From Verrucomicrobiia bacterium (GTDB lineage: Bacteria; Verrucomicrobiota; Verrucomicrobiia; Verrucomicrobiales; Akkermansiaceae): a DNA stretch of 64,000 bases. The DNA is taken from assembly GCA_030432565.1 (NCBI GenBank), contig JAUIGV010000015.1, forward strand, positions 62,001 to 126,000, given 5' to 3'. Under the pieces are notes generated by a model. It saw only the letters and a list, made by a program, of their open reading frames with translations. It had not been told where the DNA came from and did not search any database. Below are positions 40,497-56,939 of the stretch, piece by piece. The position numbers and the translations under genes are program-made. Positions within the stretch are counted from its first letter, which is position 1. Each line of letters opens with the position of its first letter.

Positions 40497-40511
40497 ATTT
40501 ACCTGCCCGAG

Positions 40512-43500
40512 ATGAGCAAACGCGTCTGGAACCCACCTGTCACTCCGAATAAAGGAGATACCACCACCGCTTGGCGTAGTGTCGGCGAGAAGGAAGGCTC
40601 CGAGAGCTTCCGCAACCTCCTTGACCGGGAATTTCCGCAAGGAGATACTCTTAACGAGGAGGAACAGAAAGTCTCCCGCCGGAATTTCACCAAACTCATG
40701 GGGGCCTCAAGCGCTCTTGCCGGACTGGGTTTGGTGTCTTGCCGCCGCCCGGAATCCTACATCGTGCCTTACAAGAAAGCTCCCGAGTGGATTATCCCGG
40801 GAACGCCGCTTTTTTACGCCAGCACCCGGCCTTCAGCAGCTGGTGCCATTCCCCTGGTGGTCACGACTTACGAAGGTCGTCCGACCAAGCTCGAGCCTAA
40901 TCACGATCATCCCGATGCTTCCGGAACCTGTGCCCAGACCCAGGCTTCTGTTCTTGATCTCTACTCGCCATCGCGCTCCCGCAAGATCCTCAAGGGAGGC
41001 AAAGAGGCGACAATGAGTGAGCTGAAATCGTCACTCCAATCCCTCGATCTCTCCAAGACTGCCCTGGTCTTTGGTAACGATGATTCTCCGACCCGCAACC
41101 GCCTTGCCAAAGGGCTTGCCGGAAAGGGAGCGACCTTGATTTCCTACGAGGCTATTTCCGGTGAACCCCTCGACGCCGGCGTTTCACACGTCGTTGACTT
41201 CGAAAAGGCAACCCGCATTCTCTCGCTCGATTGCGATTTCCTCGGAACGGATCCTGTCGGGAATTCCAAGGCCTTCTCGAAGAAGCGCCAGGGTGGAAAC
41301 GAAAATTACGATCAGGAGCACGACGTCGATGCGGGCAAGATGAACCGCCTCTACCAGGTGGAGACTCAATTCAGCCTGACCGGCGGAATGGCAGATCACC
41401 GTCTCCGCGTGGCTCCGAGCCAGGTTGCCGTGGTCGCCGGAGCGATTGCTTCCGCCATGGGGATTGGAAGCTTCAAAGCGACTGAGAAGGAAAAAGCGGC
41501 TCTTTTTCCGGGTGCCGAAAATCCGGGCAAGGAATTCGATCAATGGATCGCCGAGTGCAAAAAAGATCTCGAGGGGGCCGGAAAAGGGGCCCTTGTGCTC
41601 GCCGGATCCCGTCAGAGCCAGGCTGTCAAGCAACTCGCTGCCGTCCTCAACCAGAAATTGGGATCCGGGGCGGTGCGCGCCGTCAAAACAGATCTCGGAC
41701 AATATGCTTCGCTCGCTGATCTTGCCACCAAGCTCGAGAGCGGCGTGGTGGAAAACGTCATTTTCCTCACTCCATCGAATCCTGTTTTCGATGCCGATGG
41801 CTTCGCCGAGACTCTCGGGAAGGCCAAGGTTTCCGTCCATTGGGGGCTCCGCACCGATGCGACCGCATGGGCCTGTGACTGGCACATTCCTGCTGCCCAC
41901 TATCTCGAAAGCTGGGGTGATGCCCGCACCGAGACCGGTGTCCTTTCACTGATCCAGCCGATGATCCTGCCTCTTTATGGAGGACTTTCCGAGCTCGATC
42001 TCCTGCACGTTCTCGGAGGAGGGGACCTGCCCAAAGGTGAGTTTTTTCCCGCCATGGGTGAAGTCAAGACGACACTGGCCGAAATCACTGGCAAGTCGGA
42101 TGACGAAACCTGGCGCAACGCTCTCACCAATGGCTTTGTTGAGGGCACTTCATACCAACCTGGGGAGCTCAGTGTGATCGCACCTGAGATTGAGCATGTT
42201 GATTTGCCGTCTCCAAAGGCTCTGGAAGTGGTGTTCGCCACCGATGCTTCCGTTCTCGACGGCCGCTTCATCGACAACGCCTGGCTTCAGGAATCTCCTG
42301 ATCCCGTCACCAAGTTGACCTGGGATAACGCCGCTCAGATCTCTCCGGTTACCGCGAAAGAACTCGGTATCTATGACCGCGTCATTGCTCTCGAGCCAAA
42401 AACTCCGCTGATGCGCATCGGCACGGAGGTGAAGGTTTCTAAGCGTTATGAGACCGGTGAAGGCGAGGGGAATCACTCGCCGATGATCAATCTCAACGTC
42501 AATGGTCGCGAAATCCGCGTCCCGGTTGTCATTGCCTATGGTCACGCTGACAATGCAATTACTCTCCCGGTCGGTTACGGCCAGGCTGCCGATGACGGTC
42601 GCGATGGCGCTGTTAAATTTGACGAGTCCAAGCCTGTAGTCGGCCATGTGGGCCTCAACACCGGCTTCAACGCATATGCGCTTCGGGCCGCCGATACTCC
42701 CTACTTTGCTTTCCGCGGTGTTGTTTCGACGACCGAAGAAAAGTATCCGGTCGCGCTCACTCAAGAGCACAACTCGATGTATGGACGGGCTCTTGCCCGC
42801 GAGGTTTCCACCGACACCCTTGAAGGCAAGGGGGATTTCCAGAAGCAGATGAAGAACGTCAAGAAGCAGGGAATGGATTCCCACGCTCCTGACAACATCT
42901 CACTTTACAAGCCGGAGGGCAGTGAAACCTGGTACAAGACCGAACTTGCCAAGAAGACCCACCTTGCTGATGAAATTCACCAGTGGGGGATGGCAATCGA
43001 TCTCAACACTTGCACCGGTTGCAATGCTTGTCTTGTGGCCTGTCAGGCCGAGAACAACATTCCGGTTGTTGGAAAAACCCAGGTCGCGATGGGACGTGAA
43101 ATGCACTGGATCCGCATGGATCGCTACTTTGCCTCTCAGGAACATCCCGTGGAGCACGGTCATGTGAATCACTCCAAGGAAAATCCCGAGTGGGTCACCC
43201 AGAACCCCGAGTCGATTCCCCAGCCGGTCGCCTGCGTCCAGTGCGAGATGGCTCCTTGCGAGACCGTTTGCCCGGTGAATGCCACTGTTCATACCGAAGA
43301 AGGTTTGAACTCAATGGCTTACAACCGTTGCATCGGAACCCGCTACTGCGCCAACAACTGTCCCTACAAGGCTCGTCGCTTCAATTTCTTCGACTACAAC
43401 AAGCGCAACCCGCTCATCAAAGGCAACCTTTACAAAGGACCATTCGGTGAGAAGCAGGTGGGTGAGGCTCCTTCGAAGCAGCGCAACCCGAACGTCACCG

Positions 43501-43952
43501 TCCGCATGCGTGGTGTCATGGAGAAGTGCACCTACTGTGTGCAGCGTCTCGAGTCAGCCAAGATCAAGCAGAAGCAGCAACAGAAGGTCAACAAATACGC
43601 GGCTGGCAAGAAGTCGCACGAAGTTGCCGTCAGTCGCACCAAGGATCTCCGGGTCAAGACCGACAGCGTCAAAACTGCCTGTCAGGACGCCTGCCCGACC
43701 GACGCAATTTCCTTTGGCAACCTCCTCGATAACAATTCCAAGGTGGTTCGTGCCAAAGGTAACGTTCTTGACTCCGTCAAGATCATCCAAGGGCCCGACT
43801 ACAAGGAGATCAACGGCAGCAACCGTAACTACGATCTGCTCCAGTACATCAACACCCGTCCGCGCACGAGCTACTTGGCCCGTGTTAAGAATCCGAATCC
43901 TGACATGCCTGATGCGAAGTTCCTCGGACAGGCAACCATCAACATTCACTAA
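40512..43952 (+). CDS. actB: Alternative complex III subunit ActB, molybdopterin-oxidoreductase-like iron-sulfur protein
   Basis: 1146 residues, fusing the B1 (molybdopterin oxidoreductase fold, about 60-720) and B2 (ferredoxin-like, about 800-1090) parts. The N-terminus carries a Tat motif SRRNFTK followed by a hydrophobic stretch and lipobox LVSC, so it is exported folded and probably lipid-anchored. B2 has four cluster motifs: CTGCNACLVACQAEN near 835, CVQCEMAPCETVCP, CIGTRYCANNCP and CTYC...ACQDACP, giving three 4Fe-4S and one 3Fe-4S in known structures. B1 of this family binds no Mo cofactor. It passes electrons from the quinol site to the ActA hemes. It lies 15 bases after actA. Confidence 0.95.
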   Translation: MSKRVWNPPVTPNKGDTTTAWRSVGEKEGSESFRNLLDREFPQGDTLNEEEQKVSRRNFTKLMGASSALAGLGLVSCRRPESYIVPYKKAPEWIIPGTPLFYASTRPSAAGAIPLVVTTYEGRPTKLEPNHDHPDASGTCAQTQASVLDLYSPSRSRKILKGGKEATMSELKSSLQSLDLSKTALVFGNDDSPTRNRLAKGLAGKGATLISYEAISGEPLDAGVSHVVDFEKATRILSLDCDFLGTDPVGNSKAFSKKRQGGNENYDQEHDVDAGKMNRLYQVETQFSLTGGMADHRLRVAPSQVAVVAGAIASAMGIGSFKATEKEKAALFPGAENPGKEFDQWIAECKKDLEGAGKGALVLAGSRQSQAVKQLAAVLNQKLGSGAVRAVKTDLGQYASLADLATKLESGVVENVIFLTPSNPVFDADGFAETLGKAKVSVHWGLRTDATAWACDWHIPAAHYLESWGDARTETGVLSLIQPMILPLYGGLSELDLLHVLGGGDLPKGEFFPAMGEVKTTLAEITGKSDDETWRNALTNGFVEGTSYQPGELSVIAPEIEHVDLPSPKALEVVFATDASVLDGRFIDNAWLQESPDPVTKLTWDNAAQISPVTAKELGIYDRVIALEPKTPLMRIGTEVKVSKRYETGEGEGNHSPMINLNVNGREIRVPVVIAYGHADNAITLPVGYGQAADDGRDGAVKFDESKPVVGHVGLNTGFNAYALRAADTPYFAFRGVVSTTEEKYPVALTQEHNSMYGRALAREVSTDTLEGKGDFQKQMKNVKKQGMDSHAPDNISLYKPEGSETWYKTELAKKTHLADEIHQWGMAIDLNTCTGCNACLVACQAENNIPVVGKTQVAMGREMHWIRMDRYFASQEHPVEHGHVNHSKENPEWVTQNPESIPQPVACVQCEMAPCETVCPVNATVHTEEGLNSMAYNRCIGTRYCANNCPYKARRFNFFDYNKRNPLIKGNLYKGPFGEKQVGEAPSKQRNPNVTVRMRGVMEKCTYCVQRLESAKIKQKQQQKVNKYAAGKKSHEVAVSRTKDLRVKTDSVKTACQDACPTDAISFGNLLDNNSKVVRAKGNVLDSVKIIQGPDYKEINGSNRNYDLLQYINTRPRTSYLARVKNPNPDMPDAKFLGQATINIH

Positions 43953-43982
43953 TCTGAGAATCCTTTCCAGCGACTGAAACCC

Positions 43983-45512
43983 ATGGCCGAAGCGACCACA
44001 CAGTCTGAGAACAACACGAACGGGATTAAAATTCCCGTCCTCCAGCGCGAGGAGTTGATTCTCAATAAACGTTCCTACCACTGGATCACCGAGCGGATCT
44101 GCGGCGTTGTCGAAGGCCGGCAGCCCTTCCTTTGGTGGATCCTTTTCATCCCCTCGGCCCTCATCGCCCTCGTCGGCGTTGTTGGAGGTTTGACTTATCT
44201 GGTTTCGACCGGTGTCGGAGTCTGGGGCAATACCAACCGCGTCATGTGGGGGTGGCCCATCGTGAACTTCGTTTTCTGGATTGGTATCGGACACGCCGGA
44301 ACGCTGATTTCCGCGATTCTCTTCCTAACCCGTCAAAATTGGAGAACTTCAATTAACCGGGCTGCCGAAGCCATGACCATTTTTGCGGTGATGTGTGCCG
44401 GTATCTTCCCGGCCTTCCACGTGGGACGTGTCTGGATGGCGTGGTTCCTCGCTCCTATCCCGAACTCCAACGCGATCTGGCAGAACTTCAAGTCACCACT
44501 CCTTTGGGACGTCTTCGCGGTCTCGACTTACTTCACAGTTTCCCTGATCTTCTGGTTCCTGGGGATGGTTCCCGATCTCGCAACCATTCGCGATCGTTGC
44601 AAGCCGGGCATCCGCAAGTTCATGTATGGAATCTTCTCGTTGGGTTGGCGTGGAGGTAATCGCCAGTGGAGCCACTACGAGATGGCTTACCTGCTCCTTG
44701 CTGCGCTCTCCACTCCGCTCGTTCTCTCGGTGCACTCGGTGGTTTCTTTTGACTTCGCAACTTCGGTTGTTCCCGGATGGCACACCACCATCTTCCCGCC
44801 TTACTTCGTGGCGGGTGCGATCTTCGGTGGATTCGCCATGGTGCTAACCATCATGATTCCCGCGCGGGCGCTTTACGGTCTGCATGACATGATCACGATG
44901 AAGCACATCGATAACATGGCCAAGATCATCCTCCTGACCGGAACGATTGTTGGTTATGCCTACTTGATGGAGCTTTTCATCGCCTTCTACTCGGGCGCCA
45001 AGTATGAGGGCGCCGCTTTCCTCTTCCGAATCGACGGACCCTACTGGTGGGCGTATTACTGCATGATGGGATTGAACGTTCTCTCCCCGCAGATCTTCTG
45101 GTTCAAGAAATGCCGCGAAAACCTATGGGTCGTGATGGCCGTTGCGATGTGTGTGAACATCGGAATGTGGTTCGAGCGCTTTGTGATTATTGTCACTACC
45201 CTGGCCCGGATGTGGCTGCCAGGTGACTGGAAAACATACAGCCCGAGCGGCGTCGATGTTCTCACCTTCGTGGGAACCATCGGCATGTTCCTCGCGCTCT
45301 TCCTTCTTTTCCTCCGCTTCCTCCCGTGCATCAACATTGCCGAGGTGAAGTGGACCTTAAAAGAAAGCGACGCTCACGATGAAGACAAGAAGGCTCATCC
45401 TGATGATGGCATCGAAGTGATTGAGGCCTACCAATACGAATTACACGAAAATCCCGAGGGCTCCGCTCGCGAGGCCGGGATCAAAATCGAAAAATCAACT
45501 GCCGAGAGCTAA
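43983..45512 (+). CDS. actC: Alternative complex III subunit ActC, NrfD/PsrC-like quinol-binding membrane protein
   Basis: 509 residues with about 10 membrane helices in the NrfD-like arrangement. The N-terminus [18 protein letters not shown] precedes the first helix, and typical segments are [33 protein letters not shown] and [10 protein letters not shown]. With ActF it forms the membrane core; the quinol site is thought to be in ActC near the 3Fe-4S cluster. The C-terminal 50 residues are polar and charged. Its stop overlaps the actD start by one base (TAATG). Confidence 0.94.
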
Positions 45513-46069
45513 TGAGCACGAAAGTCCGCAGAGTTTACGGCTACCTTGCCGAATTCAAAAATGCCTCGCAGCTTTACAAGGCTGCCGAGAAAGTCCGCGA
45601 TGCCGGATTCAAAAAGTGGGATTGCTACACGCCCTATCCGGTTCATGGATTGGATGATGCGATGGGAGTGAAGCGCTCGGTTCTTCCTTACTTCGTGTTT
45701 TTCGGAGGCCTGACCGGCTTTCTGACTGCCATCGCTTTGGCATACACCACCCAGGTGGGGCTCTATCCGACGGTGGTGCAGGGGAAACCCGCCAACATCT
45801 TCACCACGGCGGCCTTCTTCCCGGTGATGTTTGAGCTTACCATTCTCTTCTCCGGCTTCACTGTTCTCTTCGGGCTTCTCGCGCTGATGGGCTTGCCTCG
45901 CTGGAACCACCCGATCTTCGCAAGCAAACAATTTGCCCGTGTCACCGATGATAAATTCTTCATCGCGATCGAGGCCCGTGACGCCAAGTTTTCCGCCGAG
46001 AGCACCAAGGCTCTTCTTGCTGAAATCGGCGGCGATAACATCGAACTCGTGGAAGACGATTCCGAGTAA
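45512..46069 (+). CDS. actD: Alternative complex III subunit ActD (DUF3341)
   Basis: 185 residues. A ferredoxin-like cytoplasmic N-terminal region (VYGYLAEFKNASQLYKAAEKVRDAGFKKWDCYTPYPVHGLD) is typical of DUF3341. Two membrane helices (about 58-78 and 98-122) follow, then a C-terminal cytoplasmic tail that repeats the beta-alpha pattern. It is a structural ACIII subunit contacting ActC and ActF. Translation is coupled to actC by a one-base overlap, and actE begins 3 bases after its stop. Confidence 0.93.
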   Translation: MSTKVRRVYGYLAEFKNASQLYKAAEKVRDAGFKKWDCYTPYPVHGLDDAMGVKRSVLPYFVFFGGLTGFLTAIALAYTTQVGLYPTVVQGKPANIFTTAAFFPVMFELTILFSGFTVLFGLLALMGLPRWNHPIFASKQFARVTDDKFFIAIEARDAKFSAESTKALLAEIGGDNIELVEDDSE

Positions 46070-46072
46070 ACC

Positions 46073-46693
46073 ATGAAATACTTTTTCCTCTCTCTCATCG
46101 CTCTTTCGATCCTCGTGGTCGGGGTGTTCGGATTCCGTGGCGACAAATTCTCGCAGGCGCCCATCCAGGTTTTTCCTGACATGGATGATCAGGACAAGGT
46201 CAAAGCCCAGACTCCCGATTCCTTCTTTGCCGATGGCATGGGATCACGAAAGCCGGTCATGGGAACGATTCCTCGCAATGCGCAGGCCGGAGTTATGCCC
46301 GTTGAGTTTGGTGCCGGTCGTGCCGGATACTATTTTGATGGAAAAAAAGACGGCACTTTTGGAAACGGCCTTCCTGATGATCTGAAGATCGGGAGCGAGG
46401 CTGACATGACCGGCCTTTTGGGACGTGGAGAAGACATGTTCAACGTCCATTGTGCGATTTGCCACGGCAAGGCTGGTGACGGGAAGGGCGTGGTTGGCTA
46501 CCATCTTGGCAAGGTCGGCGTCACTGTCCCAAGTCTTTATGCTTTCCCGCAGGACAAGTTTCCTGATGGCTACATTTACGAGGTCATCTCAAACGGCAAA
46601 GGTCTCATGGGAGGGTACAAACATAATCTTCCTGTTCGCGACCGATGGGCCATCGTTTCCTACCTTCGCGCACTTCAGGCTTCCGCCAAATAA
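46073..46693 (+). CDS. actE: Alternative complex III subunit ActE, monoheme cytochrome c
   Basis: 206 residues. The N-terminus MKYFFLSLIALSILVVGVFG is a signal or anchor with no lipobox Cys, unlike some ActE proteins that are lipoproteins. The cytochrome c domain (about 115-200) has one heme motif CAICHGKAGDGKG near 125 and a Met candidate in SNGKGLMGGYKHNL. It carries electrons from the ActA hemes toward the terminal oxidase or soluble cytochrome c. Confidence 0.94.
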   Translation: MKYFFLSLIALSILVVGVFGFRGDKFSQAPIQVFPDMDDQDKVKAQTPDSFFADGMGSRKPVMGTIPRNAQAGVMPVEFGAGRAGYYFDGKKDGTFGNGLPDDLKIGSEADMTGLLGRGEDMFNVHCAICHGKAGDGKGVVGYHLGKVGVTVPSLYAFPQDKFPDGYIYEVISNGKGLMGGYKHNLPVRDRWAIVSYLRALQASAK

Positions 46694-46717
46694 CACTTTC
46701 ATCTGACTCAATACGAC

Positions 46718-48037
46718 ATGGCACATCAAGTGACATCAAAAGACATCCCGATCAACGGGGAGCATCTGGAGAAGGGCAAAATTGCAACGCTCCAGATGAT
46801 TTGCGGCGGTATCGGTGGCCTCGGTCTCATTGCGAGCATCATTTATCTGATCGTCGGGAGTGGGCAGGCCCACGGCAGCTATGCTTTCTCGTGGCTCTTC
46901 GCAGTCTTCTTCATCACGACCATCGTGCTCGGTGGTTGCTTTTGGACCTTCCTCCACAACCTCTCGAACTCGGGGTGGGGGACATCGGTTCGGCGTCTCA
47001 TGGAGAACCTGGGATTTGTTTTCCCATTCCTGGTCGTCTTCTTCATTCCGTTTCTTTTCCCCAACGTTCAGCAGTATCTTTACGAGTGGATGACCGCTTA
47101 TCGCGATGTTGTTGGAGATAGCGGAAATGCCAAGGAGGCACTCTTGCACGACTCCGACCCTCACAATCATCTTCTTGCCGCGAAGGTCTTCTATCTCGAG
47201 CCTCTCTTCTGGTATGGGCGTTTTGTGTTTTATTTTGCCGGTCTTGGGTTCTTCATCTTCCTGGTTCGCAAGTTTTCGATCGCGCAGGACACCGATGACA
47301 AGCCGGGCACCAAGAATCTCTTCGCCGCCCGCAAGCATTCTTCGTGGAGCATGATCATCTTCGGTGTCACCCTGACCTTCCTCGCACTCGATTTCGTGAT
47401 GGCTCTCGATTACTCATGGTTCTCGACGATGTTTGGGGTCTACGTCTTTGCCGGATCTGCTTTGAACTCGATGGCTGTTCTCATCCTGACCGGGATCTTC
47501 CTTCAGAAGATGGGTTACCTCAAAAATGTGGTCACGCAGGAGCATTACCACATCATGGGTAAGCTTTGCTTCGCCTTCACCGTCTTCTGGGCCTACGTTT
47601 CCTTCTCCCAGTTCTTCCTGATCTGGTATGCCAACATCACCGAGGAGACCCGTTACTTCCTCCTGCGGAACACCGAGAACTGGAACATTCTTAGCCTGAT
47701 GCTTGTCTTCATGCACTTCGGGCTCCCATTCCTGGCGCTCCTCCGGTCGGACGTGAAAAAAAGCGCGAAGTTCATGACGATCTTCTGTTTCTACATCCTC
47801 TTCATGCACGTTCTGGATGTCTATCACATGATCATTCCCGAGCGTGGGCCATCTGTCGGGCTTGTCATTGATCACCATCCGCAGCTCTGGATTTCCGGTT
47901 CATGGCTGGGTGATATCCTTGCGCTTGTTATCGCTGTCTGTGCCTTCCTGTTCCTCTATCTCCGGAATCTGACTTCGGCAGCTCTTTACCCTCACCGCGA
48001 CCCTCGCATTCTCGAGTCCGCAAATCTTCACAACTAA
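46718..48037 (+). CDS. actF: Alternative complex III subunit ActF
   Basis: 439 residues and about 10 membrane helices, homologous to ActC but lacking a functional quinol site in known complexes. Helices such as GGLGLIASIIYLIVGSGQ, FPFLVVFFIPFL and FYLEPLFWYGRFVFYFAGL are typical, and the C-terminus (YPHRDPRILES) is a short polar tail. It completes the membrane part of ACIII; proton-path roles have been proposed. It follows actE by 24 bases. Confidence 0.94.
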   Translation: MAHQVTSKDIPINGEHLEKGKIATLQMICGGIGGLGLIASIIYLIVGSGQAHGSYAFSWLFAVFFITTIVLGGCFWTFLHNLSNSGWGTSVRRLMENLGFVFPFLVVFFIPFLFPNVQQYLYEWMTAYRDVVGDSGNAKEALLHDSDPHNHLLAAKVFYLEPLFWYGRFVFYFAGLGFFIFLVRKFSIAQDTDDKPGTKNLFAARKHSSWSMIIFGVTLTFLALDFVMALDYSWFSTMFGVYVFAGSALNSMAVLILTGIFLQKMGYLKNVVTQEHYHIMGKLCFAFTVFWAYVSFSQFFLIWYANITEETRYFLLRNTENWNILSLMLVFMHFGLPFLALLRSDVKKSAKFMTIFCFYILFMHVLDVYHMIIPERGPSVGLVIDHHPQLWISGSWLGDILALVIAVCAFLFLYLRNLTSAALYPHRDPRILESANLHN

Positions 48038-48042
48038 AGGTC

Positions 48043-48372
48043 ATGGATCACACCCGCGACAATCCTCTCAAACGCTTCACTGCCTTCTGGATCGCCATCT
48101 TGCTGGTGACCTCTTTCGGCATTGCTCTCATCATCACCCAGCCATTTGCGCCGGATAAAACCGACAAAGCTTATGAGATGATGGGCGAGGGACGTCTTGA
48201 AATTAAGGAGGAAATCGACCGCGTCCAGGACGATGCCCTCAACGAGGCCGCTCTTGCCGAGGCTCTCCAGGCGCAAATAAAGTCCTTCGGTCAGAATAAG
48301 GAGAGCAAAGGTAGCATGCCTGTTCCAGGTGCTGCACCTGCTCCGGCACCCGCCGAAAAACCCGCTGAATAA
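48043..48372 (+). CDS. Small single-pass membrane protein in the ACIII-oxidase operon
   Basis: 109 residues, starting 5 bases after actF. One membrane helix (about 14-34; FWIAILLVTSFGIALII), a central charged helix (45-85) and an Ala/Pro-rich tail (PVPGAAPAPAPAEKPAE). I do not recognise a family. Its place between actF and the CcoN-like gene makes it a candidate extra subunit or assembly factor of the ACIII-oxidase assembly. Confidence 0.72.
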   Translation: MDHTRDNPLKRFTAFWIAILLVTSFGIALIITQPFAPDKTDKAYEMMGEGRLEIKEEIDRVQDDALNEAALAEALQAQIKSFGQNKESKGSMPVPGAAPAPAPAEKPAE

Positions 48373-48403
48373 AAATTTCCCAGGCTCAAACCCGCAAATT
48401 TCC

Positions 48404-49891
48404 ATGTCTGAGACCAACTCCACCGCAGATTCCAGGGACGTCGTTTTACGCTCGTCGATCGACCGCTCTCTTCGTCATCCCGTGATGTTCTTCTTCACGA
48501 GTGGTGCCGTCTGGCTTGCGCTTGCCATCGTCCTCGGACTGGTGGCTTCCGCCAAAAAGCACAGTCCGGAATTCCTCACCTGCTTTTCCTGGCTGGATGC
48601 AGGCAAGGTGGATGCTGCTCACATGAGCGCGATGATTTATGGATGGGGGCTTCAAGCCGCTTTCGGAATCATCATTTGGCTGATGGCCCGACTTTCCCGC
48701 AAGGAGTGCACCGCCGCCGGCGTCATCCTCTGGGCGGGACATGCCTGGAATGCTGCCGTCTTCTACGGCGTTGTTCGTATTATGATGGGCGAGGGCTCGG
48801 GCGTGACTTACATGGAGTTTCCCAGCGAGGTGTGGCCTGTATTGTTGCTTTGCTACAGCGTCATCACAATTTGGTCATTGATTCAGTTTCAGGTCCGTGA
48901 CGCGGGTCACGTTTATGTGAGCCAGTGGTATCTCCTGGCCGGCCTTCTCTGGTTTCCCTGGATTGCGGTGACGGCCTGGGTCTTTGTTTTCCTCATGGAT
49001 GGTCATCCTTTGATGGTGACCGGTGTGGCAGCTTGGTTCAAAGGAACCCTTTTCTCTCTCTTCTTCCTCCCGGTTGCCCTTGCCAGTTCATACTATCTTG
49101 CCCCAAAGGTGACCGGTCGTCCGGTCTACAGTTACAATATTGCTCTCTTCGGTTTCTGGTCATTGGCAGTCTTCGGACCATGGGCGGGGATGCAGAAGCT
49201 TGTTGGTGCTCCGGTTCCCCAGTTTCTTCCTTATGCGGGAGCGGCATCAATGATTCTTATTCTCATTCCGGCCATTGCAGTTGGTTACAACATTATTAGA
49301 ACGGTAATCGGGAACAGCGAGGTCGTTGCGGAGAGTCCCTCTCTTCGGTTCACCGCTGCTGGCATCGTCCTCTTTATCGTCTTCGGTGTTTTATCCGTTC
49401 TTCTTCACACCGTTCCGGCCATGAAGTTGACCCAATTCAGCTACACTGGATATGGGTTTGATATTCTCGGACTCTACGGCGTATTCTCACTCTGCTCGTT
49501 CGGAGCAATTTACTTTATCGTTCCCAGGATCACTCGGCGCGAGTGGCTTTCCCGTCGCTTCATCAAGTGGCACTTCTATTGTTCACTTTATGGTGTCTCC
49601 TCCATCGTTCTCTGTGCTGTCATTGGGGGATTGACCCAGGGCCAGGGAATCGAGGATCTCAGCCAGCCTTTCGGCACCATGGCCGAACGAGCCAGCCAGG
49701 TCGGTTGGGGTGTCACCCTCGCTTGGGCTTTTCTTCTGATTGCCAATCTTTTCTTCTGCCTCCACTTGCTCCTGATGTGGGCTCGTCTTGGCCGTCGCTC
49801 TTCACACCCGACTCTTCTCAAGGCACATCACCCGGAAAGTCCGCACGGACCGGAGGGTGAGGTCGATAATTACAGCTCCGCCTCTGCCTAA
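48404..49891 (+). CDS. CcoN-like (cbb3 oxidase subunit I) protein lacking catalytic metal ligands
   Basis: 495 residues from the ATG at 48404, with about 12 membrane helices. The overall alignment to CcoN is clear (YLAPKVTGRPVYSYNIALFGFWSL matches the family block, and GAIYFIVPRITRR follows). The ligands are not there: the WYGHN His of CuB is WFKG (Lys213), the HH pair is MQ (263-264), and the HVH of the two hemes is FDI (352-354). Only His73 in AAHMSAMIYGW, equivalent to one low-spin heme ligand, survives. It therefore cannot reduce O2 and probably cannot hold the normal hemes. With the CcoO-like and cytochrome c genes behind it, it may anchor an electron-transfer module between ACIII and the aa3 oxidase. 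That role is inference. Confidence 0.87.
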   Translation: MSETNSTADSRDVVLRSSIDRSLRHPVMFFFTSGAVWLALAIVLGLVASAKKHSPEFLTCFSWLDAGKVDAAHMSAMIYGWGLQAAFGIIIWLMARLSRKECTAAGVILWAGHAWNAAVFYGVVRIMMGEGSGVTYMEFPSEVWPVLLLCYSVITIWSLIQFQVRDAGHVYVSQWYLLAGLLWFPWIAVTAWVFVFLMDGHPLMVTGVAAWFKGTLFSLFFLPVALASSYYLAPKVTGRPVYSYNIALFGFWSLAVFGPWAGMQKLVGAPVPQFLPYAGAASMILILIPAIAVGYNIIRTVIGNSEVVAESPSLRFTAAGIVLFIVFGVLSVLLHTVPAMKLTQFSYTGYGFDILGLYGVFSLCSFGAIYFIVPRITRREWLSRRFIKWHFYCSLYGVSSIVLCAVIGGLTQGQGIEDLSQPFGTMAERASQVGWGVTLAWAFLLIANLFFCLHLLLMWARLGRRSSHPTLLKAHHPESPHGPEGEVDNYSSASA

Positions 49892-49911
49892 AATTTCAGT
49901 TCTCCATAACC

Positions 49912-50670
49912 ATGACTTTCAAAGCATTCATTATCGGTCTCCTAGGAACCTTCGGTATTCCCTGGTTGCTCCTGGTGGTGATTCCGTATTCAACCATGCG
50001 GAGTCTTGAGCCTGTCGAGTATGGTCAAAACTCCGAGCTCGCCGGTGCATTTGTGCCCAAGCGCGATGGTCGGATCAAGGAGGGCTCGAAGATCTTCGGT
50101 CAGGAGGGGTGTGCCCTCTGCCACACCCAGGTGATTCGTCCCACCTATGCCGGCAATGACGTTCACCGGGGTGAGTGGGCCGGTCTTCGGAAGAGCAGTA
50201 GTGTCGACGAGGACACCCGTCGTGAGACCATCGTCCAGGATTACCAACAGGAAGATGTGGCTCACATTGGCCAGACCCGCGTTGGACCTGATCTTTCGAA
50301 TTTCGGGCGCCGTGTAGAGCATTACCTCAGGGTGAATAAAAGCACCCGCACTCCCGAGCAATGGACACTGATGCACCTCTACAATCCCAAGGGTGTTCCT
50401 CGTTATGAGGTCCCCGAGACCGATGAGCAAATTGTCACCGCCTGGAAGTCGGCCTGCCCGCCAAAGTCCGGACTTTTTGATAAGGTCGAGGTGCACGGAG
50501 CAGGACATGGCACCTTGCCAGTCGATATTGAAGAGGGGATGGGGATCAAGCCCACTGATCGTGCCCGCGCTCTTGCCAGCTACCTTGTTTCCCTCAAGAA
50601 AGACACTCTCGGGAACCCGCTTCCCGAAGCTCTTAATTACAATCCAAAGGCCCCTCAACCCGAAGAATAG
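49912..50670 (+). CDS. CcoO-like membrane-anchored monoheme cytochrome c
   Basis: 252 residues. One N-terminal membrane helix (about 5-25) precedes a periplasmic domain of the CcoO type with GCALCHTQVIRPTYAG, the single heme motif near 66, and the later RVGPDLSNFGRR (GPDL block of CcoO). CcoO relays electrons to CcoN in cbb3 oxidases. Here its CcoN partner lacks the active site, so it more likely passes electrons along to another cytochrome or to the aa3 CuA. It lies 20 bases after the CcoN-like gene, and the next gene begins 2 bases after its stop. Confidence 0.87.
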   Translation: MTFKAFIIGLLGTFGIPWLLLVVIPYSTMRSLEPVEYGQNSELAGAFVPKRDGRIKEGSKIFGQEGCALCHTQVIRPTYAGNDVHRGEWAGLRKSSSVDEDTRRETIVQDYQQEDVAHIGQTRVGPDLSNFGRRVEHYLRVNKSTRTPEQWTLMHLYNPKGVPRYEVPETDEQIVTAWKSACPPKSGLFDKVEVHGAGHGTLPVDIEEGMGIKPTDRARALASYLVSLKKDTLGNPLPEALNYNPKAPQPEE

Positions 50671-50672
50671 TC

Positions 50673-51443
50673 ATGTCTGATTCATCATCATCAAGTGATC
50701 TCCGTCCGGATTTGGACGAATCGATCAACGTTCAGGATGCACACGGCGCTCTCAAGGGCGATCCGGCCGCGGGTCGTGAGAAAACCGTTCGTGAGAACGG
50801 CATGGAGGCTGTCTCCCTCTGGCTTGTTTTGATCTCTGCGATTGTGGTTCTCGCAGCCGGCGCGGTGATGGGTCAGGGAGGTTCGTTCTTCGGATATGGT
50901 GAGTTGATCATAGACGGGTACATGCGGGAGCCTTCTCCGGTTCCACAGGAGGAGCCCAAGGTGCCTATTGCGGCGCTCGCCTTGTTTCAGAAGGAAGGTA
51001 AGAAGGTTTATGGCACCTGTGTGGCTTGTCACCAGGACAGCGGCCTTGGCCAAACCGGTCAGTTTCCGCCTCTTGCCGGATCAGAGTGGGTTCTCGGGAG
51101 TACCGAGGCGCTCTCACTGATCATCCACAATGGAGTTGCGGGTCCGATTGAGGTTGCCGGGACGCAATACAACGGCAACATGAGTGCCTTCGGAGCGAAC
51201 TTGAACGCCAAGGAACTCGCAGCTCTCATGACCTATATCAGGACTTCCTGGGGGAATGATGCCAGCATCGTCTCACCTTCCATGGCCGCCAACGCCCTTG
51301 AGATTTCCAAGAAGCGCGGTGGTGCCCAAACAAGTGCCGAAGAGTTGAAAAAATCACATGACAAGATGCTTCCCGGTGACATCTTGGCGCCGGACACCTT
51401 GTTGGATCCGGAAACTTGGGAGCCTGTCGCGCCCGAGGAGTAA
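50673..51443 (+). CDS. Membrane-anchored monoheme cytochrome c (CcoP-like position)
   Basis: 256 residues: a soluble N-terminal region (1-45), one membrane helix (about 47-67; SLWLVLISAIVVLAAGAVMG), a linker, and a class I-type cytochrome c domain (about 105-200) with CVACHQDSGLGQ and a probable Met ligand in NGNMSAFG. A polar C-terminal extension follows (200-256). It occupies the place of CcoP after ccoN and ccoO but has only one heme motif, against two in classical CcoP. The aa3 CoxB here has no fused cytochrome c domain, so this protein is a good candidate electron donor to CuA. Confidence 0.85.
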   Translation: MSDSSSSSDLRPDLDESINVQDAHGALKGDPAAGREKTVRENGMEAVSLWLVLISAIVVLAAGAVMGQGGSFFGYGELIIDGYMREPSPVPQEEPKVPIAALALFQKEGKKVYGTCVACHQDSGLGQTGQFPPLAGSEWVLGSTEALSLIIHNGVAGPIEVAGTQYNGNMSAFGANLNAKELAALMTYIRTSWGNDASIVSPSMAANALEISKKRGGAQTSAEELKKSHDKMLPGDILAPDTLLDPETWEPVAPEE

Positions 51444-51470
51444 CTTTTAACACCGACCATAGATATTAGC

Positions 51471-53360
51471 ATGAGTACGGACGCCCACGATCATCACGAC
51501 GACCACCATCACGTTCTTCCCTGGTGGAAGAAATACTTCTTTTCAACCGATCACAAGACCATCGGAATTCAGTATGGCCTCGCTGCTGGTGCCTTTCTGC
51601 TTTTCGGATTCTTTTTGATGATCGTGATGCGCTGGAGCATCGCATATCCCCATGAGCCGCTTCCCGGCTATATGAGCTGGATGTTCACTGATGGCTGGAA
51701 GGCCCGCTGGTTGGACGACGGAAAAGTGACTGGTGAAACCTACAATATGTTCGGTGCGATGCATGGAACCATCATGGTTTTCCTTGGAGTTGTGCCCCTC
51801 GGTTTTGCCGCTTTCGGCAACTACGTCACACCGCTCCAGATTGGTGCTCCCGATATGGCTTTTCCGAAGCTGAACATGGCGAGTTTCTGGGTTTACCTCG
51901 CTGGTGGTCTCGTGATGTGCGCCAGTTTCTTTATGGAATCCGGAGCGGCCAAGTCAGGCTGGACCAACTACTCTCCCTTGGCGGGGTATGCCGACAAGCA
52001 GATCGTGAATCAGTTTCTGGCGGGCCAGACCCAATGGCTGATCGGCTTGGTCCTCCTAATCACCTCATCCCTCCTTGGTTCGGTGAACTTTATCACCACC
52101 ATTATCCAGCTCCGTGCCAAAGGTCTGACCTGGATGCGCCTTCCATTTTTTGTTTGGGCGATGCTCGTGACCGGTTTTCTCCTCTTGCTGGCATTCCCGC
52201 CTCTTGAAGCTGCTGGCATCATGCAGCTGATGGACCGCGTGACAGGTTCCAGTTTCTTCATGCCCTCCGGCCTTTACTCGGCCTCAAGCGGAGCGGCCAT
52301 GGATCTTTCCGGTTCCGGAAGTCCTCTTCTTTTCCAGCACCTTTTCTGGTTCCTGGGTCACCCTGAGGTCTACGTTCTTCTTCTTCCTGCCATCGCTTGT
52401 GTTGCCGAGATTATACCCTGCAACACCCGCAAGCCTCTTTGGGGATACAAGCCCATGGTTTGGGCGGTCATTGTTCTCGGTTTCCTTTCCTTCATCGTTT
52501 GGGCCCACCACATGTATCTCACCGGGATGGGGCCTGTGATCTCCACGTTTTTCCAGACCACGACGGTTTTGATCTCCGTTCCTTCGGTGATCCTGCTGAC
52601 GTCGATGATCATTTCACTCTGGGGTGGTTCGATTCGCTTCACCATGCCCATGATTTGGGCGGCAGCGTTCCTGCCGATGTTTGGAATCGGTGGTCTCACC
52701 GGCCTGCCCTTGGCCTTCAACCTTGCCGACCTCCACCTCCACGACACCTACTATGTGATTGGTCACTTCCACTACGTGGTCGCTCCTGGAATTCTCTTCG
52801 GCCTCTTTGCCGGTGTTTATCATTGGTATCCCAAGATGACCGGTCGCTTCATGGATAACTTCCTGGGCCACCTTCACTTCTGGCCGTCCTTGGTCTGCAT
52901 GAACCTTCTCTTTTTCCCGATGCTCACGCAGGGAATGGCAGGTTTCCACCGTCGTTGGTACAACGGAGGCGAGGGCTACATCGAGAAGGGTGCCGAGGGC
53001 GTGAATGTCTTTGGTCTTACCGTGGCCGAGAAGATTTCGCTCAACGAGATCATGACCGGAGCGGCGATTGCTCTTGCGATTTTCCAGCTGCCTTTCCTCG
53101 TTAATATGTTCATCAGTTACTTTTGGGGTAAGAAGGTGACCAGCGACAACCCATGGGATGCGACCACGCTCGAGTGGGCCACTCCGACTCCTCCGGGACA
53201 CGGAAACTTTACCTTCGAGCCTGCAATCTATCGTGGACCCTACGAATACAGCCGTCCGGACCACGACTCTGATTTCTTCCCCCAGTGGGAGGAGCCCAAG
53301 CGCGATGCTCCGGCTGAGACGCCCGAGGTGAAACCTGAAAAGGAAACGACCGAGGCCTAG
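51471..53360 (+). CDS. coxA: aa3-type cytochrome c oxidase subunit I
   Basis: 629 residues, about 12-14 membrane helices. All heme-copper ligands are present: the His of MHGTIMVF near 97 (low-spin heme), the CuB set with the cross-linked His-Tyr in GHPEVY near 298, HH in WAHHMY near 346, and HFH in IGHFHYV near 432. The protein starts with a His/Asp-rich cytoplasmic tail (HDHHDDHHHV), a possible metal-binding strip. It reduces O2 to water and pumps protons. The long C-terminal tail (after about 560) is polar and acidic. The subunit I gene precedes III, IV and II in this operon. Confidence 0.96.
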   Translation: MSTDAHDHHDDHHHVLPWWKKYFFSTDHKTIGIQYGLAAGAFLLFGFFLMIVMRWSIAYPHEPLPGYMSWMFTDGWKARWLDDGKVTGETYNMFGAMHGTIMVFLGVVPLGFAAFGNYVTPLQIGAPDMAFPKLNMASFWVYLAGGLVMCASFFMESGAAKSGWTNYSPLAGYADKQIVNQFLAGQTQWLIGLVLLITSSLLGSVNFITTIIQLRAKGLTWMRLPFFVWAMLVTGFLLLLAFPPLEAAGIMQLMDRVTGSSFFMPSGLYSASSGAAMDLSGSGSPLLFQHLFWFLGHPEVYVLLLPAIACVAEIIPCNTRKPLWGYKPMVWAVIVLGFLSFIVWAHHMYLTGMGPVISTFFQTTTVLISVPSVILLTSMIISLWGGSIRFTMPMIWAAAFLPMFGIGGLTGLPLAFNLADLHLHDTYYVIGHFHYVVAPGILFGLFAGVYHWYPKMTGRFMDNFLGHLHFWPSLVCMNLLFFPMLTQGMAGFHRRWYNGGEGYIEKGAEGVNVFGLTVAEKISLNEIMTGAAIALAIFQLPFLVNMFISYFWGKKVTSDNPWDATTLEWATPTPPGHGNFTFEPAIYRGPYEYSRPDHDSDFFPQWEEPKRDAPAETPEVKPEKETTEA

Positions 53361-53398
53361 TGCCGACATTTCTCCACTGACCAACTTTTTCTCGATCC

Positions 53399-55189
53399 AT
53401 GGAAATTCCATTCATTGTAAACGCCCGAAAAGATACCGGACTCTTCAACTCGAAGGTCGGCATCTGGCTCTTCCTGGCCTCCGAAGTCACCCTGTTTGGC
53501 GGCTTGTTCTCGGGCTATCTCTTCCTGCGGCTTTATGCTGACTATCCATGGCCTGAGCGTGCCCTCCCGGTTCTTCCAGGCTTGATCAACACCTTCGTGC
53601 TGATTGGCTCCTCGGTCACGGTGGTTTTTGCGTGGGCTGCCTTGAAGATGCGGGAATGGAGAAAGTTCCAGATCTACATGGCGATCACGCTGGTTTGTGC
53701 CGCCCTCTTCATGGTCCTCAAGGGGATCGAGTATAGTGCCAAGTTTGGTCACCAGGCCGTCCGAATCCAGGGTGGAGGTCCGGTGCAAGACAACACCATC
53801 GTTGAGGGTCACCTTCACTATGCCAAACTCAACGAGGAAGGCCTCATGGAAGAGGTCGACAAGGGCAGCAAAAATGATGAAGGTGTGTTCAAGGCTAACC
53901 GTGTTTTGGTAAAGGCTTCGGAATTCACTTTTGTCCTCACTCGTCCAAGCCATGAGGCCTACGTCGAGGAAATCCTTAAGCAGGCTGGCGATAGTAAGAT
54001 CACCCTCGCTGAGAACTATCAAGTCATCGATAAGGATGAACTCCGTGCGGGTGAAATGAATCGCGACCAGCTGGTTAACAGCGAGGCCGCACTCGTCGCT
54101 GAAAAGGGGAGTGAACTTTCCATCGATCTGCTTGATGAACTCGAAGATGCGTTCCTTGAGGCCCGCTCACACGACCGTAAGGTCCGGACCGAGTTTCTTG
54201 CGGCATCCTGGGACTGGATTCGGAATGAGAAGGGCGAGGAGGAGGCCTCCACCTACGTTGTTGAAAAGGAGATTTGGAAAGAGCGTCGGGCCGAGGATGC
54301 CGAAAAGATCAAGGTTCTGACCCTTCGCGCGCCTTCAGAGGTGACTTTTAAAGTGGATCCTCCTTTTACTCTTGTTCTTGAGCCATCTGATCTCGTCAAG
54401 AAGGTTAATGTCGGTGATCCAAGTGCCAAGCTTCGCGATGACACTCTTGTCACAGGGAACGTTCTTCCCAGCCCAATGATCATGGGTGTTGATGCCCTCG
54501 ACTTCCGGACCACCGCCCAGCGGGCCGAAGCGGAAGGCCTTGATCCACTCCCTGTCATCGAAGGCACCTGGTTGCTCACCCACAAAGGGCACCACGATGG
54601 TCATGATGACCATGCCGAGGGTGAAGAGGTGGATGATCGCAATGAGTTCAAAAAGATCTGGGATTGCCATATGGCTTGGCTGGACGTTGAAAAGGCCCGA
54701 CTTGCCGAAAAGGATCGTGAGCCAACGGCAAACGACAAGTTTCGTGTGAACTGGGATCAGATCCTCGCCTATCAGAACCTCGACTACGATGTCGAGAAGG
54801 TGAAGGCGGCTTCCAAGGATAAGTCTCTCAAACGAACTGGATTGTTTGATTTCAATGCGATGGCCGGTGCAAATCACAAGACCCCGGACAAAGAGTTTCC
54901 TGACCTCCATTTCCCGCACCTTGAGATTCCTCGTGCCAATGTGGGATTTGAGTCATCGTTTACTCCAAAGTGGAATACCTACTATGCAATCTACTTCACC
55001 ATCACCGGCCTCCATGGTCTTCACGTGATTGGTGGAGCTCTGGTGCTTGGATACTATCTGTTCTTTGGGCGCAAAATGTATGAGTCCAATCCGGAGTGGC
55101 TGGCAAACCGCGTTGAGGTGGGAGGTCTCTTCTGGCACTTCGTGGATCTTGTTTGGATCTTCCTTTTCCCGATCCTTTACCTGATGTAA
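53399..55189 (+). CDS. coxC: Cytochrome c oxidase subunit III with a very large internal insertion
   Basis: 596 residues where 200-260 is usual. The N-terminal part has three helices (about 18-115) with the family blocks GIWLFLASEVTLFGGLFSGY and LKGIEYSAKFG. The C-terminal part (about 522-596) carries NTYYAIYFTITGLHGLHVIGG and FWHFVDLVWIFLFPILY. In between lie about 400 extra, highly charged residues, helix-forming and acidic, including a His-rich strip HKGHHDGHDDHAEG near 396-410. The frame is continuous with no stop or frameshift sign, so this is a real insertion in the loop between helices of the core fold. Subunit III stabilises the oxidase; the insert may dock ACIII or cytochromes. Confidence 0.9.
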   Translation: MEIPFIVNARKDTGLFNSKVGIWLFLASEVTLFGGLFSGYLFLRLYADYPWPERALPVLPGLINTFVLIGSSVTVVFAWAALKMREWRKFQIYMAITLVCAALFMVLKGIEYSAKFGHQAVRIQGGGPVQDNTIVEGHLHYAKLNEEGLMEEVDKGSKNDEGVFKANRVLVKASEFTFVLTRPSHEAYVEEILKQAGDSKITLAENYQVIDKDELRAGEMNRDQLVNSEAALVAEKGSELSIDLLDELEDAFLEARSHDRKVRTEFLAASWDWIRNEKGEEEASTYVVEKEIWKERRAEDAEKIKVLTLRAPSEVTFKVDPPFTLVLEPSDLVKKVNVGDPSAKLRDDTLVTGNVLPSPMIMGVDALDFRTTAQRAEAEGLDPLPVIEGTWLLTHKGHHDGHDDHAEGEEVDDRNEFKKIWDCHMAWLDVEKARLAEKDREPTANDKFRVNWDQILAYQNLDYDVEKVKAASKDKSLKRTGLFDFNAMAGANHKTPDKEFPDLHFPHLEIPRANVGFESSFTPKWNTYYAIYFTITGLHGLHVIGGALVLGYYLFFGRKMYESNPEWLANRVEVGGLFWHFVDLVWIFLFPILYLM

Positions 55190-55228
55190 TCCATCTCAAA
55201 TTTGTTAGATTTTTAAACGTAAAAACTC

Positions 55229-55630
55229 ATGGCTGATTCTATCGAAGAAGTAAAAAAAGCGAAGAAGCTCTACATGTTCATCGGGACATTGTTGTTCTTC
55301 TTTACGGTTATCACCGTCATGGTGGCGACTGTCGAGTGGTTGGATTTTGGCGACCACGGATTTGACGGCGTTGATGCGACGATTGGTCTTTGCATTGCAG
55401 CCTTCAAGGCCTCGCTGGTGATGCTCATTTTCATGCACCTCAACCATGAGCGCCCGCTGATCTATTTTGTCTATATTCTCGGATTAGTGATGGCATTTTT
55501 CTGTATGTGGTTGATTGGTTGGTCCAAGAGCGATCCGATACAGTTCGGTAATGAAACTTACAGCGACGGTTTTTACGATTTGTCCAAGCCTGCAACTGAG
55601 GTCCATGGGCATGGTGCCCAAGAAAAATAA
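55229..55630 (+). CDS. coxD: Cytochrome c oxidase subunit IV (prokaryotic COX4-like)
   Basis: 133 residues with three membrane helices (about 14-36, 48-68, 72-95). The phrase GLCIAAFKASLVMLIFMHLNHE is typical of the prokaryotic COX IV family (caa3 CtaF/CoxD type). The C-terminal 40 residues are polar. Role: assembly or stability of the aa3 oxidase. It follows coxC after a 39-base A/T-rich gap. Confidence 0.88.
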   Translation: MADSIEEVKKAKKLYMFIGTLLFFFTVITVMVATVEWLDFGDHGFDGVDATIGLCIAAFKASLVMLIFMHLNHERPLIYFVYILGLVMAFFCMWLIGWSKSDPIQFGNETYSDGFYDLSKPATEVHGHGAQEK

Positions 55631-55642
55631 CCCCACCAAATT

Positions 55643-55846
55643 ATGTCGATCAAAGGATTCCATCTTATCTTCATTGCGATTGCCGCTCTCTTTTGCGCCG
55701 GATTTGGCGTTTGGGCGATCTTTCTCGATGAACAATCGACGGGATCCGGCGTCAAGGTTTTCGGTGGGATTACCCTGGTCGCTTCTGTTGTTCTGATCGT
55801 TTACGGCTTCTATTTTCGACGAAAGTCAAAAGACATCATTGTCTAA
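55643..55846 (+). CDS. Small two-helix membrane protein in the oxidase operon
   Basis: 67 residues: two hydrophobic helices (about 6-28 and 38-58) joined by a short polar loop (LDEQSTGSGVK), with a basic end (RRKSKDIIV). No family is recognised. It begins 12 bases after coxD, and its place in the operon makes an oxidase accessory subunit or assembly factor likely. Confidence 0.72.
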   Translation: MSIKGFHLIFIAIAALFCAGFGVWAIFLDEQSTGSGVKVFGGITLVASVVLIVYGFYFRRKSKDIIV

Positions 55847-55870
55847 TCCCCAACCCCGGAAATTCACATC

Positions 55871-56089
55871 ATGACCTCATCATCGATTCTAGCTTGTGCG
55901 ACCTGTGCAAATGCCTTCAAGCATGGAGGTGAAGACGCGGCGGGGTGGGCAATTGCCCTGATGCTTTTCGTGATTATTCCGCTCGTGACCATGGTGGTCT
56001 GGTTTATGGTCAAGATCGCAAAGCGTGAGCGCGCCGGTCTGGACTCCCAATATTGCGACGACTACGTTGCTCCTTCCAACAACTCTTAA
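55871..56089 (+). CDS. Small single-pass membrane protein with CATC motif
   Basis: 72 residues. A short N-terminus has CATC near residue 9, followed by one membrane helix (about 26-48; AIALMLFVIIPLVTMVVWFMV) and a polar tail. The CATC pair lacks the His of a heme motif but could bind copper or zinc. No family is recognised. It sits directly before coxB (14 bases), suggesting a link with CuA insertion or complex stability; this is inference from position. Confidence 0.7.
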   Translation: MTSSSILACATCANAFKHGGEDAAGWAIALMLFVIIPLVTMVVWFMVKIAKRERAGLDSQYCDDYVAPSNNS

Positions 56090-56103
56090 AAACTCTCCAT
56101 TCC

Positions 56104-56916
56104 ATGTTTACCGCACTCAATTGGTCAAAATGGCTCGGGATTCCCGAGAATTACTCCGATCACGGTGGCAATGTTGACCACCTCATCGATATTGTTCACT
56201 GGTTCATGTTTGCGCTCTTCGTGGGCTGGACTTTGTTCTTCCTCTTCTGCCTTTGGAAGTTCCGGGCGTCCAAGAATCCCAAGGCCAGCTATCATGGCGT
56301 GACCAATCACGTTTCCAGCCACCTTGAGATTGGGGTGGTAATTATCGAGGCTGTTCTTTTGCTGGGATTCGCCTTTCCCCTCTGGTGGGAGCGGACCGAT
56401 AGCTTCGACGAGGTCCAGCAGACCGACCCGGCCCGGGTTCGGGTGGTGGCTTACCAGTTTGGTTTCAGTTACCACTATCCCGGTGAGGACGGCAAGTTTG
56501 GCCGGATTGACAGAACGCTAGTCAGCAAGCCGGGCGACCCGTGCATTGACCCTGATGATCCGAACGGCTACGACGATTTTGTTTCCGGTATTCTTAAGCT
56601 GCCAGTGAAGCGCAATGCCATCCTTCAGATCACTTCGACCGATGTCATTCACAACTACTCAATTATCCCGATGCGAATCCAGCAGGATGCTATTCCCGGT
56701 CGTGATATTCCAATGTGGTTTATGCCGACCAAGGAATTGGAGACTTATGTCGTTTGTGGACAGCTTTGCGGAGAAAACCATGCAAACATGCGTGGAGTGA
56801 TGGAAGTGGTGAGTCAGAAGTCATTTTCGAGCTGGGCGGCAGAACAAAGCAAGGCCTCACTTGAAAAGTCCCAGGAGGCTCTCGAGGCTGACAAGGCGGG
56901 GCTTGCCAAGAATTAG
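56104..56916 (+). CDS. coxB: Cytochrome c oxidase subunit II (CuA subunit)
   Basis: 270 residues from the ATG at 56104. Two membrane helices (about 30-54 and 75-98) precede the periplasmic cupredoxin domain. CuA ligands are visible: His in IHNYSIIPMR near 180, and the VVCGQLCGENHANMRG block near 217-230. The usual CxExC Glu is Gln here, a small deviation. No signal for a fused cytochrome c domain, so the enzyme is aa3 rather than caa3, with cytochrome c supplied by other genes of the operon. An Ala/Lys/Glu helical tail ends the protein. coxB is the last gene, an unusual order, and is followed by a strong terminator. Confidence 0.94.
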   Translation: MFTALNWSKWLGIPENYSDHGGNVDHLIDIVHWFMFALFVGWTLFFLFCLWKFRASKNPKASYHGVTNHVSSHLEIGVVIIEAVLLLGFAFPLWWERTDSFDEVQQTDPARVRVVAYQFGFSYHYPGEDGKFGRIDRTLVSKPGDPCIDPDDPNGYDDFVSGILKLPVKRNAILQITSTDVIHNYSIIPMRIQQDAIPGRDIPMWFMPTKELETYVVCGQLCGENHANMRGVMEVVSQKSFSSWAAEQSKASLEKSQEALEADKAGLAKN

Positions 56917-56939
56917 TTAAAGTCACGGGTTTTTACCGA

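Follow-up and report, generated by a model that had tools for sequence, protein, structure and literature searches.

In the ACIII-aa3/caa3 systems of Flavobacterium johnsoniae and Rhodothermus marinus, the genes of alternative complex III (ACIII) are followed by those of an A-type oxidase, and direct electron transfer between the two complexes is known. The link is a sixth heme on ActA in F. johnsoniae (PMC8552683) and a heme on CoxB in R. marinus (PMC5928083), with the aa3 oxidase of the former touching ACIII via subunit III (PMC8361435). In Opitutaceae and methanotrophs a C-type oxidase is said to lie next to ACIII (as quoted in PMC8498564), and this locus has been called a cbb3 oxidase and linked to high oxygen affinity (PMC6688271, PMC8498564, PMC10205796, PMC11102522). 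Here we analysed a stretch of 64,000 nucleotides from a Verrucomicrobiia bacterium (contig JAUIGV010000015.1, positions 62,001 to 126,000; hereafter the window), in which ACIII genes likewise precede those of an A-type oxidase, but which differs from F. johnsoniae and R. marinus in its five-heme ActA, its heme-less CoxB and a cbb3-derived trio of genes lying between them. The trio encodes a relative of the cbb3 catalytic subunit CcoN, a CcoO-like protein and an anchored monoheme cytochrome c, and is preceded by a gene for a small protein with one transmembrane (TM) helix. As judged from its residues and its modelled structure, the CcoN relative (hereafter pseudo-CcoN) appears to have lost its chemistry and kept the oxidase fold. 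The overall explanation that we favour, with rather better than even confidence, is that a disarmed C-family oxidase has been kept in the ACIII operon as a scaffold and as a cytochrome route to the CuA site of the aa3 oxidase. Computation established the anatomy of the locus, the homology and predicted fold of its proteins, the loss of ligands and its repetition, and the purifying selection acting on pseudo-CcoN.

The locus is laid out as follows, with the basis of an assignment in brackets.

39735-40496, + strand: ActA, pentaheme cytochrome with five CXXCH motifs and no sixth heme domain (sequence)
40512-43952, + strand: ActB, ACIII subunit, molybdopterin-type plus iron-sulfur (open reading frame, conserved neighbours)
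43983-45512, + strand: ActC, quinol-binding membrane subunit
45512-46069, + strand: ActD (open reading frame, conserved neighbours)
46073-46693, + strand: ActE, monoheme cytochrome c (open reading frame, Pfam)
46718-48037, + strand: ActF, membrane subunit (open reading frame, conserved neighbours)
48043-48372, + strand: small one-TM protein, no heme, 109 aa
48404-49891, + strand: pseudo-CcoN, cbb3 subunit I fold with cofactor ligands lost, 495 aa
49912-50670, + strand: CcoO-like membrane-anchored monoheme protein, 252 aa, one CXXCH
50673-51443, + strand: anchored monoheme cytochrome c (CcoP-like/c552-like), 256 aa, one CXXCH, His/Met invariant
51471-53360, + strand: CoxA, A-type oxidase subunit I (Pfam)
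53399-55189, + strand: CoxC, with a long insertion (Pfam)
55229-55630, + strand: CoxD, subunit IV (Pfam)
56104-56916, + strand: CoxB, CuA ligands present, no heme c domain, start codon inferred
56938-56967, + strand: strong terminator-like hairpin at the operon end

The four-gene module at 48043-51443, which a first, sequence-only reading had picked out between the ACIII genes and coxA, proved to consist of intact open reading frames placed as described, beginning 5 bp after ActF and ending 27 bp before coxA. The intergenic gaps from ActF onwards are 5, 31, 20, 2 and 27 bp, and the top terminator-like site within 39000-57500 (13 pairs, at 56938-56967) lies directly 3' of coxB. Because of these short gaps and the position of the strongest hairpin of the region, the genes from ActA to CoxB read as one apparent operon, in which ActA-F are predicted to be transcribed together with the A-type oxidase, the gene arrangement of an ACIII-oxidase supercomplex. 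In Pfam searches pseudo-CcoN matched COX1 at 123 bits (cut-off 34.8) and the fourth protein matched Cytochrom_C. The genome, which is 97% complete, encodes elsewhere a separate fused CcoNO with all ligands; neither bc1 nor a bd oxidase was found in it, each absence, here and in every other genome, resting on one profile. The module is not a chance assembly, since the same gene order recurs in dozens of genera.

Like the cbb3 oxidase of Pseudomonas stutzeri (3MK7), the module has a CcoN-CcoO-CcoP-like gene set, a CcoN fold and anchored c-type cytochromes. Unlike that enzyme, it lies inside an ACIII operon, its CcoP-like protein has one heme, and a MAFFT alignment revealed that five of the six cofactor histidines, along with the catalytic tyrosine, are gone from pseudo-CcoN. 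The six positions that bind heme b, heme b3 and CuB are occupied by H73, G214, Q264, K265, F352 and I354, and the tyrosine position by G258.

48620-48622, + strand: His73, counterpart of a ligand of low-spin heme b, the sole ligand kept
49043-49045, + strand: Gly214, replacing a CuB histidine (His207, Pseudomonas numbering)
49175-49177, + strand: Gly258, replacing the cross-link tyrosine (Tyr251, Pseudomonas numbering)
49193-49198, + strand: Gln264-Lys265, replacing the CuB histidine pair (His257-His258, Pseudomonas numbering)
49457-49465, + strand: Phe352-Asp-Ile354, replacing the His-x-His motif of the heme b3 and heme b ligands

Low-spin heme b is thus left with one of its two histidines (Ile354 stands at the second), heme b3 has lost its ligand to Phe352, and all three CuB histidines are replaced. 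The sequence-only reading had taken this CcoN to be inactive, and the loss of the ligand residues for heme b, heme b3 and CuB and of the tyrosine predicts the same. Misalignment was rejected as the cause of the missing ligands, as two MAFFT alignments showed no gaps in the flanking motifs, and relatives that keep all six histidines and the tyrosine (hereafter armed; those that have lost ligands are termed disarmed) are intact at the positions in question. Subunits I of heme-copper oxidases are usually annotated as working oxygen reductases wherever they are found. No description of a ligand-less CcoN was found in the literature searched, subscription journals lying mostly outside that search.

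The AlphaFold model of pseudo-CcoN (pLDDT 89, pTM 0.90) has the 12-helix heme-copper oxidase fold nearest to CcoN. Its best matches in VIA-align were all cbb3 CcoN chains (Z 45.4-47.1, root mean square deviation 2.1-2.6, 444-449 residues), with the top match at Z 47.1 and 2.1 Å over 444 residues, whereas nitric oxide (NO) reductases scored Z 40.5-42.1 and A-type oxidases up to about 35. Sequence profiles agreed, matching CcoN chains at 1e-58 or better and the next group at 1e-10. The cbb3 origin that had been proposed for the module is borne out by the profile match and the predicted fold; identity as an NO reductase was rejected, the fold match being below that to CcoN and the ligands being missing.

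Pseudo-CcoN is under strong purifying selection. Its ratio of non-synonymous to synonymous substitution (dN/dS) is 0.034-0.086 against relatives at 80-97% identity, similar to that of the neighbouring subunits, and of 136 positions that never vary in armed members, the window's family retains 65 with at least 90% conservation, the active-site positions being among those lost. Within the window's order, 293 of 386 genomes, representing 48 of 50 genera, carry the gene, with open frames in nearly all; a recent pseudogene was ruled out by the dN/dS values and by these intact frames across the order. The same observations, together with synteny kept across families, make it very improbable indeed that the module is a decaying remnant with no present function, even though ligands were lost repeatedly, disarmed branches are longer than armed ones, and the module is missing beside ACIII in one genome (G008) and truncated in another (G078). 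Conservation of particular residues raises a different prospect, namely that pseudo-CcoN retains a cofactor or has gained an activity, such as binding of a heme between His73 and a newly acquired ligand, or ion passage through the vacated site by way of Gln264-Lys265. In the window's family 40/40 members have His73, 36/40 have Gln264 and 33/40 have Lys265, some of the approximately 100 near-invariant positions there are unlike those of armed members, and family f6 keeps both low-spin heme b histidines. We nonetheless consider this quite improbable: no one residue is conserved as a second ligand, position 354 retaining histidine in 0/40 and carrying I, V, M or L in all 40, and His73 itself has been lost in methanotrophs and in many members of family f5.

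A survey of 288 genomes of the phylum, with 50 loci read in detail for ligands, located the ACIII-linked CcoN family in the window's class, nearly always directly after ActF. A scan of named genomes added at least 80 loci, which among the matches listed were all of the window's order by title; family names were drawn from these named loci and from markers. Conserved placement next to ACIII, one of the earlier claims, extends across families. The further claim that the module is specific to the junction of ACIII and aa3 did not survive, as in many relatives the trio follows ActF with no adjoining aa3, and in one genome of the window's own family (G268) the aa3 genes are elsewhere. Because it follows ActF across the class, often without aa3, the trio is best regarded, on synteny, as belonging with ACIII and not with the aa3 junction. 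In three loci of one genus of the order (L036, L054 and L055), ActB and ActC lie on a contig separate from ActE-ActF-CcoN-CcoO-cytochrome-CoxACDB, so that ActE and ActF stay with the module.

Of the 50 loci read in detail, 15 are armed, as are those of three more genomes, and most armed loci have no adjoining aa3. Two armed genomes (G001 and G146; 98-99% complete, 1.3-1.7 Mb) encode no other heme-copper oxidase, and neither a bd oxidase nor bc1 was found in them. Since it is the only terminal oxidase detected there, the armed CcoN must, on gene content, be a working oxidase in these cells if they respire oxygen. The module was therefore not born as the dedicated wire that the sequence-only reading had proposed. 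Disarmed members are graded: family f6 retains only the two heme b histidines, Verrucomicrobiaceae-like members retain scattered ligands, and methanotrophs almost none. In f6 (L038 and L039), which has no CuB or heme b3 ligands, the protein is possibly a low-spin heme b protein. A strict link between disarming and an aa3 oxidase in the operon was also considered and rejected, because one locus (L041) is armed beside aa3 and many disarmed loci have no adjoining aa3; at L041 the aa3 genes, CoxB first, lie directly downstream, placing both oxidases in one cluster.

The 50 ACIII-linked CcoN sequences fell on one side of a branch with 100/100 support, separate from eight other CcoN sequences, all of which are armed. 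On a CcoN tree inferred without the ligand columns there were three changes of state, and a single disarmed clade was rejected (approximately unbiased test, p-AU 0.0018); on a tree of ActB plus ActC there were eight changes, and a single disarmed clade was again rejected. The CcoN tree is to be read with care, in that it joins several fast-evolving disarmed sequences, perhaps through long-branch attraction. A single ancient loss is rejected on both trees, and it is well supported that disarming occurred more than once, with three to eight switches. We infer that the direction was from armed to disarmed, because the outgroup is armed and regain of seven residues is improbable. The history that would follow, of which the origin, the disarming and the repeated loss are well supported, is that a C-family oxidase of CcoN, CcoO and a monoheme CcoP-like protein was built into the ACIII operon in the ancestor of the class, where it would have been fed by ACIII; that in several lineages, among them that of the window, CcoN was stripped of hemes and copper and may have been kept as a membrane scaffold holding c-type cytochromes next to ACIII; and that the operon of methanotrophs and of the window's order goes on to encode an aa3 oxidase whose CoxB is heme-less. 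Since members at a single conserved locus range from armed through partly armed to fully disarmed, a change from enzyme to pseudoenzyme becomes traceable and testable, and the locus bears on why cells retain an oxidase scaffold after its chemistry is lost.

It bears equally on how electrons pass from ACIII to an oxidase where the linking heme is missing from both ActA and CoxB. CoxB has CuA ligands and no CXXCH motif, in line with the sequence-only reading that it lacks a cytochrome c domain, and ActA has five hemes only. The aa3 oxidases borne in other operons of this kind likewise have a CoxB without heme c, whilst the stand-alone caa3 oxidases of relatives mostly carry heme c on CoxB. A linking role is thereby left open for the cytochrome encoded by the fourth gene, whose heme features are listed here with those of the CcoO-like protein.

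50110-50124, + strand: heme c motif CALCH of the CcoO-like protein
50455-50457, + strand: Cys182, at the axial Met position of CcoO (alignment)
51018-51032, + strand: heme c motif CVACH of the fourth-gene cytochrome
51180-51182, + strand: axial Met170 of the fourth-gene cytochrome

Thermus cytochrome c552, which supplies electrons to the CuA site of ba3 oxidase, is the best solved relative of the heme domain of the fourth protein (8.5e-20), which differs from it in being membrane-anchored and operon-encoded. The domain is a class I heme domain with His/Met ligation, as expected of a c552-like monoheme donor, and has one CXXCH rather than the two hemes of CcoP. Its histidine was kept in 48/48 aligned relatives and its methionine in 47/48 (one gap), whether armed or disarmed. 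Conservation of CXXCH and Met, likeness to c552 and anchoring beside CoxA make this cytochrome the likely wire, the candidate that best fills the link.

The CcoO-like protein, with its N-terminal TM anchor and one CXXCH, has the layout of CcoO/FixO, and its Pfam FixO score of 27 bits falls just below the gathering cut-off of 29.6. A profile of its family matched a true CcoO at 1.6e-46, that sequence being in the alignment, and two CcoO sequences outside the alignment at 7e-36 and 6e-36. The axial Met of CcoO is kept in 15/15 armed relatives and is altered in disarmed lineages only: in the window's family it is Cys in all members inspected (about 47 loci, L094-L142, plus the window), and outside that family it is Met, or His, Arg or Ala in some disarmed lineages. 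Hemes with a Cys ligand usually have a low potential. Replacement of the axial Met by Cys makes this heme a poor candidate for a wire, and in the window's family it probably lies off the main electron route. The earlier proposal that both anchored cytochromes carry electrons from ActA/ActE to CuA therefore stands, as a prediction, for the fourth-gene cytochrome and falls for the CcoO-like protein.

The cysteine, which looks selected, would also suit a side branch or sensor, in which a low-potential or redox-sensing heme diverts ACIII electrons or reports redox state, and one methanotroph has a nitrous oxide (N2O) reductase operon between ActF and the module. This strikes us as distinctly unlikely, given that Cys ligation is read from an alignment, that other disarmed lineages keep Met, and that the c552-like cytochrome beside the CcoO-like protein resembles an ordinary high-potential donor. 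Altered axial ligands and persistence of the module without adjoining aa3 could instead mean that pseudo-CcoN and its partners have a purely structural part, stabilising or assembling ACIII or an ACIII-aa3 supercomplex, with hemes that carry no respiratory flux and with ActE/ActA reducing CuA directly. F. johnsoniae offers some precedent, since its ActE is not needed for electrons to reach aa3, which ActA may reduce directly (PMC8552683). We regard this as unlikely, as a passive part would not need the CXXCH and Met that the fourth-gene cytochrome keeps in essentially every relative, and, without that cytochrome, the window has neither of the known linking hemes. Under the favoured explanation of a scaffold plus a cytochrome route, the cytochrome at 50673-51443 most likely takes electrons from ActE/ActA and hands them to CuA. 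This is the likeliest function, though unproven; what we infer for the module is its role as a scaffold, the path taken by the electrons and its physical association with ACIII and aa3.

Several observations weigh against that explanation. The transfer of electrons to aa3 in F. johnsoniae even without ActE (PMC8552683) is one, and another is that the disarmed module survives in lineages without adjoining aa3, including G268, where aa3 lies on another contig. Another genome, G078, has a truncated CcoN-like gene and both cytochromes, with no match to ACIII or bc1. Finally, G008, a genome with pmoA-bearing neighbours in its family, has ACIII without an adjoining trio, as well as a heme-less CoxB. 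Because the trio is absent beside ACIII in G008, the ACIII-aa3 chain can apparently do without it, and the module is not strictly required between the two complexes. In G078 (L086, 7728-9894) the truncated CcoN-like protein is of 346 aa, the CcoO-like protein of 163 aa and the cytochrome of 213 aa. The G008 locus (L193, 1-10097) comprises ActABCDEF, a 124-aa one-TM protein and CoxC-CoxD-CoxB, with no CcoN module and with CoxA on another contig, and fits PQ17, the sole methanotroph said to lack cbb3.

The 'cbb3 next to ACIII' of methanotrophs and Opitutaceae (PMC8498564, PMC6688271, PMC11102522) is the same locus and belongs to the same family as that of the window. It has been published as a working cytochrome c oxidase, whereas in the pmoA-bearing genomes of family f4 the ACIII-linked CcoN is without ligands, and a query with true CcoNO matched the CcoO-like partner and A/B-type oxidases in them but no CcoN. 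Matched by synteny, the published methanotroph oxidase thus appears to be a ligand-less member of the family. If this is true, the cbb3 credited to verrucomicrobial methanotrophs is not an oxidase, which bears on the oxidases that these organisms really use. Opitutaceae-like families (putative labels) include both armed and disarmed members. We see an even chance for the broadest claim, that the catalytic subunit of an oxidase became a cofactor-free structural subunit several times independently, with its CcoP-like cytochrome re-wired to aa3 and the methanotroph cbb3 not an oxidase. In one methanotroph genome (G072) ActF and the module are separated by an insert that includes a CuA-bearing protein of 666 aa, and this insert fits the nos operon described for M. 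caldifontis (PMC11102522).

The small protein at 48043-48372 takes the place of a small one-TM gene that nearly all relatives have between ActF and CcoN and, compared by description only, answers to ActG, a small, cofactor-less, one-TM protein of the act cluster. Its counterpart extends into a monoheme cytochrome c domain in several genera of the same family; at L034, L035, L091, L093 and L107-L125 a TM-anchored monoheme cytochrome c related to the fourth protein (about 1e-42 to 1e-48) occupies its position. In the window CoxC is 596 aa long; it is homologous to COX3 near the two ends and carries a long insertion that separates TM helices. Its homologues are of 455-624 aa in relatives of the order and about 270 aa in methanotrophs.

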